Shown here in pieces: positions 48,154 to 59,736 of a stretch of 64,000 nucleotides of DNA. The first letter of the stretch is position 1, and every line of letters begins with the position of its first letter. The notes beneath the pieces are model-generated. The model was not told where the DNA came from. It searched no databases and saw nothing but the letters and a program-made list of their open reading frames with translations. The translations under genes were made by a program, and so were the position numbers. This stretch comes from Sebaldella termitidis ATCC 33386 (lineage in GTDB: Bacteria; Fusobacteriota; Fusobacteriia; Fusobacteriales; Leptotrichiaceae), in assembly GCF_000024405.1 (NCBI RefSeq), contig NC_013517.1, positions 3,193,989 through 3,257,988 of the forward strand, read 5' to 3'.

Positions 48154-49239
48154 TTAGTTTTCTAATTTTTTAAATAATTCATTCCATTCAGAACATATTT
48201 TTTTTATTAAAAATCTCTCAGAATTTTTCACAGCTTTTCCAGACATTTCTATCCGCATATTATCATTTTCTATCATTCTAGTGATTGCTGCTGACAATTT
48301 TTCTATATTTTCAGGTTCTACTAATAAACCATCTTTTTCATTATTAATTATTTCTCCCGGACCTGTCAAGCAATCAAAACTCACTGCCGGAAGTCCTTTT
48401 GCCTGAGTTTCTATTAAAACACACGGAAAAGCTTCATATCTGGACGACATTACATAAAAACTATAATTATCTGTAATTTCATAAAAATTTTCAACATAAT
48501 CCATTATTTCAACATTATCATTCAATTTTAAAGTATCTATGAGATTCTGAAGTTCTTCTTTTTCCTCTCCCTGACCAAAAATTTCTAATTTCCAGTCAGG
48601 ACATTTTTTTATTACAGTTGGCATAGCTTTTAATAGCATATCAAATCCTTTTTGTTTTGTTAACCTTCCAGCAGCCAATATTTTTTTAGAATTTTTATTA
48701 TATTTCTTAAATTTAAAAGCATCAGGTATAGGATTATGTATTTTTACTACATTATTTAAAAATTTTGAGTATTTTTCATAATCATAATCAGTTAATACTG
48801 AAAGTATATCCAACTTATTATAATAAATTTTCTTTCTTAGCTTTGTCTTTAGACTATGTCCGTCATAAAAGATATGTTCTGTTCCTATTAACTTTGAATC
48901 CAACCTTTTTTTTACTTGAACCAGATAAATATTAAATCTTGCAGACATGCCTATTATAATATCATATTTTTGCTCTTTTAAATATTCTTTCAAAATTTTT
49001 AGACTTCTTAATTTTTCCTTATATTTCAGCAAAAAATTTTTATATTTCAAAAAAATATCAAGATATGTAATTTTTACCTTTGAATCATATTCAAAGTGCC
49101 TTTTATCTGATTTTCTATAAAAATTTATTAACTCTACTTCATAATCATAGTAAGTTGCAAAATAGTTAGCCAGACTATTAATTACTCTTTGTGTGCCACC
49201 AAGTTCTAAGCTGTCATCAAATAAAAATGCTATTTTCAC
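48154..49239 (-). CDS. GT4-family glycosyltransferase
   Basis: 361 residues, GTG start with AAGGAG. IAFLFDDSLELGGTQRVINSLANYFATYYDYEVELINFYRK is the N-domain; KKILAAGRLTKQKGFDMLLKAMPTVIKKCPDWKLEIFGQGEEKEEL and YEAFPCVLIETQAKGLPAVSFDC (EX7E) the donor site. It is a tandem paralogue of the next upstream gene: the two share starts, the IGTEHIFYDGHSLKTK block and the end. Similar to GalNAc and Gal transferases of O-chain clusters; the sugar is unknown. Confidence 0.88.
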   Translation of the reverse strand: MKIAFLFDDSLELGGTQRVINSLANYFATYYDYEVELINFYRKSDKRHFEYDSKVKITYLDIFLKYKNFLLKYKEKLRSLKILKEYLKEQKYDIIIGMSARFNIYLVQVKKRLDSKLIGTEHIFYDGHSLKTKLRKKIYYNKLDILSVLTDYDYEKYSKFLNNVVKIHNPIPDAFKFKKYNKNSKKILAAGRLTKQKGFDMLLKAMPTVIKKCPDWKLEIFGQGEEKEELQNLIDTLKLNDNVEIMDYVENFYEITDNYSFYVMSSRYEAFPCVLIETQAKGLPAVSFDCLTGPGEIINNEKDGLLVEPENIEKLSAAITRMIENDNMRIEMSGKAVKNSERFLIKKICSEWNELFKKLEN

Positions 49240-49251
49240 GTTTTCTCCTTT

Positions 49252-50349
49252 TCAAACCGACTTTTTCTTTATCATTTTTTCAAATAATTCTTTCCATTCA
49301 TTTCCTATTTTTTCATTTCTAAATCTTTCAGAATTGATAACTGCATTTTTAGAAAGCTTTTTTCTGAATTCTTTATCTTCAATCATGCTTACTATGGCTT
49401 TTGACATTTCATTTTCATTTTCTGCATTAACCAATACACCATCTATGTTATTATTGATTATCTCTTTAGGACCACTTTTACAATCAAAGCTAATAACCGG
49501 CAATCCTGTAGCCTGTGCCTCTACCAAAACAAGTCCAAATCCTTCATATTTGGAAGTCATTACAAAAAAACTATATTCCTTCATAACTTCTTCCATATTA
49601 TCAATAAAATTTTTTATTGTAATATTTTTAGATAAATTATACTTTTCTATTAAACTTCCCAATTCTTTTTTCTTCTCTCCCTCTCCCAGAATTTCCAGAT
49701 TCCAATCAGGATATTTTTCAAAAGCTTCACGGGTACACTTAATCAGAATATCAAACCCTTTTCCCTCTGTAAGCCGTCCTGCTGCTAATATTTTTTTAGA
49801 TTCGACATTATAATTCTCGTATTTAAAAGTATCTGGTATAGAATTATATATTATTGATACATTTTTGAAATATTTTGCATTTTTATCATAATCTTCCTGA
49901 GTAAGAACTACCAATGCATCTAGATTTTTATAAAAAATTCTTCTTTTAATCTTGGTTTTCAAACTGTGCCCATCATATGGTACATGTTCTGTCCCAATAA
50001 CTTTTGCATCTATCCCTTTTCTCACCTGAGCAACAAGTATATTGCTCAAAGCAGCCATACACAAAATAATATCATATTTATTTTTTTCCAAATGTTTTTT
50101 TAGTTTCTTTCGCATTTTTATTTTATTAATAAATTTTGATATAAAATCTTTTTTTGTATTTTTAATTGTCAAATCTGTGATTTTAACTGCTGAATTATAA
50201 ATAAAATTTTGTTTTTTGGAATTCATATTATAATTTATTACTTCTATCGTATAATTAAAATTGTCACTAAAATAATCTGCCAGATTATTTATAACTCTTT
50301 CAACACCGCCTAATCTCATGCAATCGTCAAATACAATTGCTATTTTCAT
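49252..50349 (-). CDS. GT4-family glycosyltransferase, paralogue of its neighbour
   Basis: 365 residues, ATG with AAGGAG. IAIVFDDCMRLGGVERVINNLADYFSDNFNYTIEVINYN matches the downstream protein, as does IGTEHVPYDGHSLKTKIKRRIFYKNLDALVVLT. KKILAAGRLTEGKGFDILIK and YEGFGLVLVEAQATGLPVISFDCKSGPKEII (EX7E) give a full GT4 donor site. The pair arose by tandem duplication and likely adds similar linkages at successive positions. 12 bp separate them. Confidence 0.88.
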   Translation of the reverse strand: MKIAIVFDDCMRLGGVERVINNLADYFSDNFNYTIEVINYNMNSKKQNFIYNSAVKITDLTIKNTKKDFISKFINKIKMRKKLKKHLEKNKYDIILCMAALSNILVAQVRKGIDAKVIGTEHVPYDGHSLKTKIKRRIFYKNLDALVVLTQEDYDKNAKYFKNVSIIYNSIPDTFKYENYNVESKKILAAGRLTEGKGFDILIKCTREAFEKYPDWNLEILGEGEKKKELGSLIEKYNLSKNITIKNFIDNMEEVMKEYSFFVMTSKYEGFGLVLVEAQATGLPVISFDCKSGPKEIINNNIDGVLVNAENENEMSKAIVSMIEDKEFRKKLSKNAVINSERFRNEKIGNEWKELFEKMIKKKSV

Positions 50350-51489: not shown

Positions 51490-52566
51490 TTAAAGAATTC
51501 CAATAATTTCATCAATAATTTTTTTTTTATCAAATTTTTTTTTGACAAATTCTTCTCCTATTTTTTTATTTTTCAATTTTTCTTTCATCTCATTCACTTC
51601 TAATATTTGCTCTGCAAAATTTTTATTATCATAAATCTTTACTAACTTAGCTCCCAAATAACCTTCTAAAACTTCTGGATTGCTACTTATATCATAGGCA
51701 ACTATTGGTTTATTAGAATACATTGCTTCAACTAAAGAATAACCAAAACCTTCCCATACTGATGTAAATGCAAAAACATCGATTTTTTCTAAAAATAATT
51801 TTACATTCTTTATAAATCCTAATAAGACAATTTCATTTTCTAATTTTTCATGTTTAATTTGTTTACTTAACTCATCTTCTAATTCACCAATTCCTGCCAA
51901 ATATATTTTAAATTTTATATTTTTATTTTTCAAATATTTAGCTATTTCTATAAAATTACTCTGACCTTTTTGCTTAGACAACCTTGCTAAGTTACCAATT
52001 ATTAATTTATTTTCTCTTTTTATTTGAATTTCTTCATAAAGTTCATTTTCGTATATTTCAAAATCAAAATAATTGTGTATAACTGTTATTTTGTCATCTA
52101 GCATACTTAATTTCATATTTTTTATAACTGTATTTTTGGTTTCATAAGAATTAACAATTATTTCATCAATTAATTTCCCAAGACACAGTTTATTAAAAAA
52201 ATTTTTTTTTATTGGAATTGCACTTCCTCTTCTGTAAATCTTTTTATCTATTTTAACAAATAAACCACTTATTGACAATATTTTCATATCAATTGGTAAG
52301 TTTGCTATTACAGTCGATATTTTTTCTTGATAAAAGAATTTACACACTTTATATACAGTTAACAGATTTAAAAAGCTTTTATTTGATATCTTTATTTCTT
52401 TTACCTCTATCCCAACTTCCCTACATCTTTTTATTAACTCACTATTTATATTTCCTAAAACTATTATTTCATATCCTTTTTCCCACAAAATTTTAGCAGT
52501 TTCAAAATGCCATTTTTCTCCCCCACCCCAATTTTTAGATGAATTGAAAAAACATATCTTTTTCAT
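51490..52566 (-). CDS. GT4-family glycosyltransferase, paralogue of the 44.5 kb gene
   Basis: 358 residues, ATG with AAGGAG. ICFFNSSKNWGGGEKWHFETAKILWEKGYEIIVLGNINSELIKR is almost the same as the start of the protein encoded at 44486-45571. LIIGNLARLSKQKGQSNFIEIAKYLKNKNIKFKIYLAGIGELEDEL and VWEGFGYSLVEAMYSNKPIVAYDISSNPEVLEG (EX7E) are the donor site. Its start overlaps the GT2 gene by 4 bp (ATGA). Confidence 0.88.
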   Translation of the reverse strand: MKKICFFNSSKNWGGGEKWHFETAKILWEKGYEIIVLGNINSELIKRCREVGIEVKEIKISNKSFLNLLTVYKVCKFFYQEKISTVIANLPIDMKILSISGLFVKIDKKIYRRGSAIPIKKNFFNKLCLGKLIDEIIVNSYETKNTVIKNMKLSMLDDKITVIHNYFDFEIYENELYEEIQIKRENKLIIGNLARLSKQKGQSNFIEIAKYLKNKNIKFKIYLAGIGELEDELSKQIKHEKLENEIVLLGFIKNVKLFLEKIDVFAFTSVWEGFGYSLVEAMYSNKPIVAYDISSNPEVLEGYLGAKLVKIYDNKNFAEQILEVNEMKEKLKNKKIGEEFVKKKFDKKKIIDEIIGIL

Positions 52567-53306
52567 TTGTTTTTCTCCTTTAATTTTGCATACTTTGCAA
52601 AAACATAAAATGATGCAAGTTTAGCCAATAGATATCCTTCATATCCATCTAAAAAACCGGCTTTTAATATATACATCTTAAAAAATTTAAAAATAGAATC
52701 TAGATAAAACAATATAAAATTCTTTTTTTTATTTTGTTTTTTATATTGTATTGCTGATTCTGTAGTATATCTGTTAAATTTTACAAAATAATCTTCAAGA
52801 TCTTCATATGTATGATGAAATATTTCTTCTTGCAAAATTTCTGGTTTTTCATTTGTAATAAATTTTTCATGTACTTCTCTGTCATTATATTTTCCAATTC
52901 CCTTTTTGAACAGTCTTACACGATAGTGATTACTCCAGCCTCCATACCTTATTTTTTTTCCAAAACATACTGCAGTAAAATTAGGTTTGTATACACTGCC
53001 ACTCTTTTCGTCATTTATTACTATTTTTATTTTATTTTTTAATTCTTTCGATATTTCTTCATCTGCATCTATTAAAAGTATCCATTCTCCATTACATTTA
53101 GCTATAACCGAGTTTTTTTGTCTTCCATACCCTTTCCATTCTTCAGAAAATATAGCTGCATTATATTTCCGGGCAATTTCCAGCGTCTTATCAGTACTTC
53201 CGCTATCCACTATTACTATCTCATTTGCTATTTCTAATACAGAATCCAAAGTTCTTGCTATGTTTTTTTCCTCATTAAAAGTAATTAAACCCACTGATAA
53301 CTTCAT
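52563..53306 (-). CDS. GT2 glycosyltransferase, WaaE/KdtX-like
   Basis: 247 residues. LSVGLITFNEEKNIARTLDSVLEIANEIVIVDSGSTDKTLEIARKYNA is the GT2 nucleotide site; GEWILLIDADEEIS holds the DxD metal motif, and WSNHYRVRLFKKGIGKYNDREVHEKF is typical of the WaaE group, which adds glucose to heptose I of the core. A weak hydrophobic stretch occurs near the C-terminus (ILFYLDSIFKFFKMYILKAG). Function in core synthesis is inferred from that group. Confidence 0.88.
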   Translation of the reverse strand: MKLSVGLITFNEEKNIARTLDSVLEIANEIVIVDSGSTDKTLEIARKYNAAIFSEEWKGYGRQKNSVIAKCNGEWILLIDADEEISKELKNKIKIVINDEKSGSVYKPNFTAVCFGKKIRYGGWSNHYRVRLFKKGIGKYNDREVHEKFITNEKPEILQEEIFHHTYEDLEDYFVKFNRYTTESAIQYKKQNKKKNFILFYLDSIFKFFKMYILKAGFLDGYEGYLLAKLASFYVFAKYAKLKEKNK

Positions 53307-53329
53307 TTTTTATCAACTCACTTAAAAAT

Positions 53330-53501
53330 TTATTTTTTAGAATAAAAATAACGATATGCTTTTACAAAACTATTCAGAGAAATTTCATTCATTAGTTTAT
53401 TATTGTAATAGTCATCACTGATTGTTATTTCATTTTCATCATTTTCTTTTACCACTATTTTAACATATTCAGCATTATGCTGAAAAGACTTTAGTTCTTC
53501 C
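53330..53501 (-). pseudogene. Out-of-frame C-terminal tail of the GT9 gene
   Basis: The GT9 gene upstream stops at 53491. If one base were added to the run at 53502-53508, the frame would continue for about 57 residues (LEELKSFQHNAEYVKIVVKE and onward) to a stop at 53330. That leaves 23 bp before the next start, a gap normal for this operon, whereas the existing stop leaves 184 bp without a gene. The tail is coding-like (Lys, Asn, Glu rich) and has no stop. Confidence 0.65.
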
Positions 53502-54426
53502 AAAAAAATACCAATAATTTTTTTCTTAAGCCATATGAAATATTATAAAGTCCTGAATCAAAACCTATGTATAATTTTGAATCTGCTATCATTTTCGTAC
53601 TTTCTCCCAGATTTAATTTATTTACATAATTTGTAAGATTATCTTTACCAAGTATTTCTACCAATTTTTGTGAATATTCCCTATCTCTTTTACCATGACC
53701 CAAGAGATATATTTTTACATTTTTATCTGATATTATTAGATATTCTAAAAATTCTGCTAGTTTTTTCGGAGAGCACATTCTATTTAAATCTGTAGTTCCT
53801 ACTCCTACTGTTATATAATTTTTTTCAGATGTTTTTATCGGCAGTTCTGGAATCAAATCTACTTTTTTTAAATTACTCTCTATTTTGCTTGCATAATTAT
53901 ATACTTTATCAATTATTTGATCATATTCAGGATCTATAAGTATCGTATGAAATTCTTTATTCCAGCTTTTATACATTCCATTTTTATAGCCATATACTTT
54001 ATCAAAATTGAATTTTTTTAAGAAATTAATTTTATTTTCTTTATCTGAATGCTTCAGCTTATTAACATCATATCTTTGGTGAAATTCTAAAAAATACAGT
54101 TCTTTAAAATTATATTTACATAATTTTTTATACACTTTAAATAATTTTATTATCTTCATGTGACATTCATCTTCATAAGTTTCATACTTATAGCTTAATA
54201 AATCTATCAATTCTGAGGTATTATTTCTTACCAGAAAGATGACATTTTCCCTGCCGTGCTTTTTTATTATCAAATCAATTAACTTCTGATTTACTATTAT
54301 ATCACCTATTCCATCAAATTCAGTAATAAGAATTTTATCTTTATCTCCTTTTGGCTTTATATACAAAGTAATAAAGAAGAATAAAAAATTAGTCATATAA
54401 TATTTATAAATATTTTTTTCAGCCAA
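53491..54426 (-). CDS. GT9-family glycosyltransferase, apparently truncated by a frameshift
   Basis: 311 residues in the present frame. A hydrophobic N-terminal stretch (NFLFFFITLYI) precedes the GT9 start ILITEFDGIGDIIVNQKLIDLIIKKHGRENVIFLV. YITVGVGTTDLNRMCSPKKLAEFLEYLI and LYIGFDSGLYNISYGLRKKLL (the usual DSGP block) give the donor site. The protein ends right after this block at VFFWKN, in a 7-T run. The continuing frame is listed separately. It lies 10 bp after the O-antigen ligase-like gene. Confidence 0.82.
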   Translation of the reverse strand: MAEKNIYKYYMTNFLFFFITLYIKPKGDKDKILITEFDGIGDIIVNQKLIDLIIKKHGRENVIFLVRNNTSELIDLLSYKYETYEDECHMKIIKLFKVYKKLCKYNFKELYFLEFHQRYDVNKLKHSDKENKINFLKKFNFDKVYGYKNGMYKSWNKEFHTILIDPEYDQIIDKVYNYASKIESNLKKVDLIPELPIKTSEKNYITVGVGTTDLNRMCSPKKLAEFLEYLIISDKNVKIYLLGHGKRDREYSQKLVEILGKDNLTNYVNKLNLGESTKMIADSKLYIGFDSGLYNISYGLRKKLLVFFWKN

Positions 54427-54436
54427 TATGGTTTTT

Positions 54437-55714
54437 TCAAACTTTTTCTCCTGTAATATTTATGTTTTTATTTAATGCAAATCCTAAAATAAAAAACATT
54501 GTTTGATTAACTTTTTCCATGTAAATCGTTACTTCTGTTAGTCCATTAATCCACACATATATTATAACTATCAATCCCAATAAAAAGTATTGTTTATACT
54601 CTTTAAAATCATCATTTTTATATCTCTTTATCAATTCAAAGAAAATATTAAAAAACATATAAACGTAGAATAAAAGGCTTAAAATTCCCTGAGTTAATAA
54701 AATATCTAGGATATTATTATGTGAATTATCAGTGGTATATGCATAAATTATCAAAGTATCATTATTCAGTGGGATTTCTTTCTTATAAGTTAAATTATCC
54801 GGTTCAAAATGTACGTATTCTGAAAAATCTGGGGGTACCCTTAGAGAGTAAGCTTGAAAATTATGATATCCTATTCCTAAAAAATTACTTCTTTTAGTTA
54901 ATTCCAAACTTCTTTCATATATCAAAACTCTTATACTGCTTGAGAACTCCCCATCAGAATTTCTATTATCAAATCTTTGAAAATATGAATTTAAAGTCCC
55001 ATAAAAAATAATCAGACCTAAAATTATGATAGAACACGATAATACAAAAATTTTCCTATTTTTATTTATAACTACAGCAATCAAAAAAATCAGAGGAATT
55101 AAAATTATCATTATTCTAGTTTGTGTACCTAAAATTACAATATAACCTAAAATTATTGAAAGTCCTGCAATTATTTTTATCCATAGCTTATACTTATACA
55201 ATAATATTACCATCGATATCAATAAAAAAATTCCAAGTTCTACAGGAAATTTCGTTGGCCAATTATCACCAAATAATCTTATCGTTGAAGAAAAATTATT
55301 ATCATGCCACTCACTTAATCCTCTATATATCGGAAAAAAAGAAAGAAGCGAAAAAAATATCAAGATATATTTATAAGTTCTCCTATCAATTTCTACTTGT
55401 GTCATAGAGAAACCAAACAACAAATAAACAATCGTTCTTTCATACATTTTGAATTTTTCATAACTAAAATCACTTTTTAATATAAACATACTTATTGTCA
55501 TAAAAAGCATATATCCAATACCACCAATAGCTATATGTTTATTAAAAATTATTTTATTTTTTGTAAGAATTACATATATCAAGAAAAGAATCACTAAAAA
55601 AAAAGTTGCAGAAACTCTTGATGAGTTTCCTCTTTTACTTAATAAATACGGATACAATAATATTACTATATTTTGTAATATTATTAAATGATTACAGATT
55701 TTTTCTTTTTTCAT
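54437..55714 (-). CDS. O-antigen ligase/polymerase family membrane protein
   Basis: 425 residues, ATG with GGGAG. About eleven hydrophobic segments with a large external loop near the C-terminal third (roughly 265-340), which ends in TTDNSHNNILDILLTQGILSLLFYVYMF, the H-x-x-x-x family motif of Wzy_C/WaaL proteins. Either it joins O-antigen to lipid A-core or polymerises repeat units; sequence does not decide. No flippase gene (wzx) or ABC exporter is seen in the window, which leaves the O-chain export route open. Confidence 0.82.
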   Translation of the reverse strand: MKKEKICNHLIILQNIVILLYPYLLSKRGNSSRVSATFFLVILFLIYVILTKNKIIFNKHIAIGGIGYMLFMTISMFILKSDFSYEKFKMYERTIVYLLFGFSMTQVEIDRRTYKYILIFFSLLSFFPIYRGLSEWHDNNFSSTIRLFGDNWPTKFPVELGIFLLISMVILLYKYKLWIKIIAGLSIILGYIVILGTQTRIMIILIPLIFLIAVVINKNRKIFVLSCSIIILGLIIFYGTLNSYFQRFDNRNSDGEFSSSIRVLIYERSLELTKRSNFLGIGYHNFQAYSLRVPPDFSEYVHFEPDNLTYKKEIPLNNDTLIIYAYTTDNSHNNILDILLTQGILSLLFYVYMFFNIFFELIKRYKNDDFKEYKQYFLLGLIVIIYVWINGLTEVTIYMEKVNQTMFFILGFALNKNINITGEKV

Positions 55715-59010: not shown

Positions 59011-59736
59011 TTATTTAATCTCCTTATTGTCAAAAAATCTTCTCCACTTGACTTTTTCTTTAATTATTTTAGCAGGTATTCCTGCGGATAATGAATTGGA
59101 CTTATCAATGCTTTTAGTCACAAGACTTTTTGCCCCTACTATACAATCATTTTCTATAACTACACCTTTCAAAACTGTAACTCCTTCACTAAGCCACACT
59201 CTGTCTTTAATAATAACTTTTTGTCCATTATTTATTAATTTATTTTGAAAATCAAATATTGGATGACTGTCTGTATTCCTCACTTCTACATTATATGAAA
59301 ACATACAATTTTCCCCTATAAAAATCTCATTATTATTTTCTTGACTGTTTAATTTGGCTCCTTCAATTGTCGTATCTTTTCCCACAAAAATCTTACTATT
59401 TTCTCCATTAATGAAAAAATAAGACTTATAAATTTTTATATTCTCAGATATTATTATTTTATTATTTTTTTCATTTACAATAATATCAGTATCTTTTAAC
59501 TTTGAATTTTCTTTTATTACTATTTTATTGTTCTTACCATTTAATTTTATCACCACATTTTTCAGTTCCACATTTGATCTAATTTCCAATTCATTGTTTT
59601 TACCGCTTATTTCTATTGAATTTTTTTTTATATTTAAATTTTTGAAAAAATTTATTTTATTATTATTTTTATTATCCAATTTAATTTTATTTTTCAATCT
59701 AATTTTTATTAAATCTAATAAAAAATTCTCTTTCAT
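59011..59736 (-). CDS. Hexapeptide-repeat acetyltransferase (WbbJ/LacA-like)
   Basis: 241 residues, ATG with AGGAG. About 40-150 is a run of beta-strand repeats (GKNNELEIRSN, GKNNKIVIKEN, NEKNNKIIISEN and GENSKIFVGKD), then left-handed helix hexads. VRNTDSHPIFDF holds the catalytic His typical of WbbJ-type enzymes, and LSEGVTVLKGVVIENDCIVGAKSLVTKSI and AGIPAKIIKEK finish the coil. It would O-acetylate a sugar of the LPS. First gene of the LPS cluster, with its own promoter. Confidence 0.86.
   Translation of the reverse strand: MKENFLLDLIKIRLKNKIKLDNKNNNKINFFKNLNIKKNSIEISGKNNELEIRSNVELKNVVIKLNGKNNKIVIKENSKLKDTDIIVNEKNNKIIISENIKIYKSYFFINGENSKIFVGKDTTIEGAKLNSQENNNEIFIGENCMFSYNVEVRNTDSHPIFDFQNKLINNGQKVIIKDRVWLSEGVTVLKGVVIENDCIVGAKSLVTKSIDKSNSLSAGIPAKIIKEKVKWRRFFDNKEIK

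Follow-up and report, generated by a model that had tools for sequence, protein, structure and literature searches.

A probable recent frameshift in a GT9-family glycosyltransferase gene of the variable LPS block of Sebaldella termitidis

A GT9-family glycosyltransferase gene in the type strain of Sebaldella termitidis is interrupted by a frame break near its 3' end: translation stops some 60 residues early, and what follows in the gene has kept an open frame and its resemblance to relatives. The explanation that we favour, with a probability of about 0.55, is a real, fixed one-base indel that inactivates one of the glycosyltransferases encoded in a variable LPS block. The window, by which we mean the whole stretch of 64,000 nucleotides that was analysed, comprises bases 3193989-3257988 of the chromosome, a contig of 4,418,842 bases in a genome of 4,486,650 bases and 3 contigs. 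The strain (NCTC 11300 / ATCC 33386) was isolated from termite intestine and is described in its genome report as the sole strain of the species (PMC3035275).

The interrupted frame, an ORF of 311 aa with a TTG start as listed, occupies 54426..53491 on the minus strand. It ends with the residues KKLLVFFWKN, and its stop lies directly 3' of a T7 run at 53508..53502; the sequence GTATTTTTTTGG is found here on the minus strand. A second minus-strand ORF in another frame, 53503..53330, supplies 57 codons that read as the missing C-terminus of the same gene. The stop of this tail is separated by 23 bp (53307-53329) from the ATG (53306) of the next gene, a GT2 glycosyltransferase at 52563..53306 on the same strand, which provides a syntenic anchor, at ~80% identity, common to the related genomes G002 and G003. 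Upstream, also on the minus strand, is an O-antigen ligase/polymerase-like membrane protein (Wzy_C, 54437..55714). The frameshift reported in the preliminary description, with its 57 additional codons ending shortly before the next gene, is confirmed in the deposited sequence. Its placement at the T7 run stands only in part. Open from 53542 onwards, the tail frame shares 52 nt (53491-53542) with the main frame; the break must lie inside these 52 nt, and they contain, besides T7, a second seven-base run, A7, at 53518..53524 (minus strand), so that the break is not assignable to T7.

What does the C-terminus look like in relatives whose gene is intact? The gene is present in three of the four genus genomes, this one included, with weaker matches in 6 more of the 33 family genomes. 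We take as orthologues the loci L010 in G002 and L012 in G003, where the same GT2 gene comes next as in the window; these two are the only true, syntenic orthologues. L010 encodes an uninterrupted protein of 357 aa, and the G003 piece is open to its stop, its upstream part being cut off by a contig end. L012 is the same record as L020, from the MAG TD116_bin61, and a scan of genome contigs returned two loci only, both from this MAG. The other two genus homologues, L008 and L009 (366 aa), adjoin different genes and are of paralogue type. The interrupted frame has 22 residues between the DSG motif and the stop, compared with 74-83 in all four genus homologues with a readable C-terminus and 73-77 in six of six family homologues; two paralogues from the S. 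termitidis genome itself have 83 and 94. Values were obtained for 13 of 15 loci, the S. termitidis paralogues L003 and L004 being without the motif by the pattern used. With C-termini of this length in the relatives, the short form is not the conserved state. Nor is the run a conserved feature, since no base run is found at the break site in any of the four genus homologues (L010, L012, L008 and L009).

Which of the two seven-base runs is the better candidate for the break? The residues encoded between A7 and T7 are LLVFF in the main frame and IIGIF in the other. Scored with BLOSUM62 against the orthologues, which have ILAIV, these give 5 and 9, respectively; against the paralogues (QICMI) both give -1. 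The residues thus lean slightly towards A7, the run that went unnamed in the preliminary description.

That the tail is homologous to the relatives' C-termini is suggested by several sequence comparisons, modest singly and convincing in sum. Among 20,000 random sequences with the local base composition, 0.15% contained 57 codons in succession without a stop. When the tail was locally aligned with the C-termini of L010, L012 and L009, its score was matched by none of 5000 shuffles in each case, and with that of L008 by 6 of 5000; in its two alternative frames this DNA contains 8 and 13 stops and reaches scores of 16-22, as against 54-74 for the tail. A search of the four genus genomes with the tail gave matches in G003 (E 0.0018), G002 (0.068) and a G003 paralogue (0.094), and none in G001. 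The tail shows no decay past the break, and this combination of an open frame with retained similarity implies that the break is either recent or only apparent.

Assignment to the GT9 family follows from the Pfam profile PF01075, which the interrupted frame matches at 25.2 bits (cut-off 22) and three relatives match at 32.5, 30.8 and 28.4 bits. The alignment covers profile positions 132-206 of 247, and the C-terminal half of the profile is incomplete in the translated product, the main frame stopping at position 206; in L010, L009 and L008 the alignments end at 236, 234 and 208, respectively. The equivalog cut-offs of TIGR02193 and TIGR02195 (LPS heptosyltransferase I or II) are not reached by the truncated frame (27.8 against 185.3 and 21.5 against 134.6), nor by full-length L010 (24.4 and 32.8). 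The likeness to the GT9 heptosyltransferases WaaC and WaaF (PDB 2gt1, 1psw) therefore lies in the PF01075 score above cut-off and in the GT-B fold of an intact relative, and the difference from them in an identity of 10-16% and scores far under the NCBIfam equivalog cut-offs.

When L010 was searched by sequence against solved structures, the 5 matches were all at chance level and none was a glycosyltransferase, and we therefore compared the fold instead. An intact paralogue-type relative from L019 was modelled with AlphaFold (mean pLDDT 61.5, pTM 0.65); confidence is low in the tail region, with pLDDT <50 over residues 303-348. The best structural neighbours of this model are GT9 enzymes, namely WaaF (1psw; Z 19.6, rmsd 4.3, 291 residues aligned, model residues 35-362) and WaaC (6dfe; Z 18.6). 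The part missing from the interrupted gene corresponds approximately to model residues 305-366, which include a strand (317-321) and the last helix (346-363). Since the intact relative is predicted to fold as GT-B and aligns with WaaF, the lost residues would belong to the fold. The C-terminal helix of GT-B enzymes folds back against the N-terminal domain, and loss of function would be the likely result of its removal. We infer that the truncated product lacks the fold's final strand and its closing C-terminal helix and is likely to be inactive.

How often are genes broken in this assembly? We compared 266 ORFs from 320 kb of G002 with 344 kb of the S. termitidis genome; 247 of them had a counterpart, representing 243 distinct genes with a median identity of 90%. 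Missing ends were flagged in 8 of the 247 rows, two of which are this GT9 gene, and it alone among the 243 genes has lost its C-terminus; the aligned parts of these genes contain 366 A/T runs of at least 7 bases without a break. The other six flags are all N-terminal. Four of these were inspected in the DNA, and in three the ORF seems to have been extended upstream into the leader, before its proper start; the remaining two N-terminal flags are at G002 C3:79854-80504 and C2:59928-60830. With 8 flags in 247 rows and 366 unbroken runs, the idea of widespread gene breakage at homopolymers was rejected; errors at homopolymers, like pseudogenes that arise from them, are rare in the S. termitidis assembly.

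The fourth inspected N-terminal flag concerns a possible second frame break or internal start at ~1763-1860 of locus L083 (near 3298.8 kb of the same chromosome), opposite G002 C3:81564-82532. The gene is, by eye, a homologue of HTH-like regulators, with its first codons in a different frame from the rest, and a related short gene at L083 1021-1602 has an A9 run at its third codon.

The main rival to a true indel is an error of the consensus, in which the chromosome would be intact and a homopolymer miscounted in the 2009 assembly; this deserves to be taken seriously, although on balance we consider it unlikely. 454 Titanium reads are prone to homopolymer miscounts. They supplied 30.3x coverage, and the stated error rate of <1 in 100,000 permits up to ~45 errors in the genome, but 9.2x Sanger coverage and Illumina polishing were also used; together with the 59 pseudogenes given in the genome report, the stated rate leaves room both for tens of errors and for tens of true pseudogenes (PMC3035275). 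The undecayed tail is what either an error or a recent change would leave. Since other breaks at runs are scarce, such errors are evidently rare here, and this favours a true change. Among the three causes offered in the preliminary description (phase variation, recent mutation and sequencing error), recent mutation fits best, and phase variation has gained no positive support. Slipped-strand changes in a run that switch the GT9 gene on and off within the population would suit an LPS gene with an A/T run at or near its break and the rest of its frame open, in a block where long A/T runs are unusually common. Seven-base runs are, however, ordinary in this genome: A/T runs of at least 7 bases occur in 49 of the 57 window ORFs of at least 100 aa and in 221 of 313 ORFs in twenty 20-kb stretches. 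When 549 sampled ORFs, from stretches some of which overlap, were compared with codon shuffles, runs of at least 7 showed no depletion (753 observed, 682.8 expected), those of at least 8 a clear depletion (157 and 278.6) and those of at least 9 a strong one (9 and 115.0). Selection against slippery runs is thus visible from 8-9 bases and not at 7, and this is in line with the nine bases reported as the run length under selection in many bacterial genomes (PMC1088944). A run of seven also lies below the cut-off of at least 10 applied to poly-A/T switching tracts in a Campylobacter survey (PMC6321876), and below the homopolymers of at least 8 that are reported as mostly the variable ones in the meningococcus (PMC5084427).

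Other features point the same way. MutS1 and MutL are both encoded, with scores above cut-offs; the run is missing in four of four relatives, a second run shares the overlap, and the break is near the 3' end and not early in the gene. The homopolymer contingency genes for LPS or LOS of Campylobacter, Haemophilus and Neisseria are comparable in that a glycosyltransferase gene has a homopolymer near its break, and differ in that the A/T run here has only seven bases, is unconserved and lies late in the gene. We consequently hold phase variation to be improbable. Still less credence attaches to transcriptional slippage or ribosomal frameshifting as a source of some full-length protein. The overlap does hold two seven-base runs, and rescue of some disrupted genes with slippery runs has been proposed by Baranov et al. 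(PMC1088944), but the site is unconserved in the four relatives and its runs fall short of the lengths at which depletion is clear or strong in this genome. Least probable of all is that the 311-aa form is the functional one: its frame does extend past the conserved DSG motif, but all 12 other loci with values have 73-94 residues from motif to stop, and the part lost would belong to the GT-B fold. Searches for similar DNA found none in plasmids (by search) or viral contigs (by pattern scan), collections that may both omit the records of this genome. Among the papers listed on Sebaldella with lipopolysaccharide or phase variation, none by title concerns the GT9 locus, and literature on phase variation with fusobacteria had, by title, nothing on Sebaldella.

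Our preferred reading is accordingly a recent one-base indel within the 52-nt overlap (53491-53542) of this GT9-family gene in the variable LPS/O-antigen cluster of the type strain. Slippage during replication at either seven-base run would have produced it, and the broken state is probably fixed and not switching. One-base losses in variable LPS/O-antigen blocks are ordinary. The single-base frameshift pseudogenes generally known from such clusters share with this gene a one-base break, a remainder that is open and recognisable, and intact relatives; no difference from them was identified, the break here being one that is not assignable to either of the two runs.

The window flanks mostly have 80-97% amino-acid identity to G002; at 48-60 kb the values are ~37-70%, with some genes absent and the GT2 gene itself at ~80%. 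This region is a variable LPS/O-antigen block containing GT4, GT2 and GT9 genes and the Wzy_C protein. Two GT4 genes, at window positions 48154-50349, are without a counterpart at the corresponding position of the syntenic G002 contig, indicating that the block has gained or lost genes.

The block also contains long runs. Seven coding A/T runs of 9-10 bases were seen in 15.5 kb of the block at 43.7-60 kb (codon-shuffle mean 10.1), among them 51519-51528 (A10), 52202-52210, 55596-55604 and 59621-59629; 502 kb of sampled coding sequence has 8 runs of at least 9. Given the genome-wide depletion, ~0.8 runs would be expected in the block, with a Poisson P of 1.6e-5, or 4e-4 with an upper bound on the ratio, values that flatter the contrast because the limits of the block were set with the runs already in view. 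At homologous sites readable in G002 or G003, none of the seven is kept and the longest run is of 2-8 bases; the corresponding block of G002 has 2 A/T runs of at least 9 against 10.1 from codon shuffles. Could the block be a poly-A/T contingency region, with the broken GT9 gene as a member that has slipped? It would then have retained runs of 9-10 bases such as selection has purged elsewhere, several of them early in glycan genes, for instance a T9 at codon 37 of the Wzy-like gene and an A9 at codon 36 of the acetyltransferase. If true, this would mean homopolymer switching of a surface sugar in an insect-gut fusobacterium. We think it quite improbable; relaxed selection or recent import would explain the long runs equally well.

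Of these results, only the persistence of long A/T runs in the block would deserve follow-up; neither a real break in the GT9 gene nor an error changes general understanding. If the consensus is in error, the deposited gene should be corrected. If, as we favour, the break is real, the type strain would make a surface glycan short of one transfer step, and anyone interpreting its LPS structure or annotation would need to take this into account.
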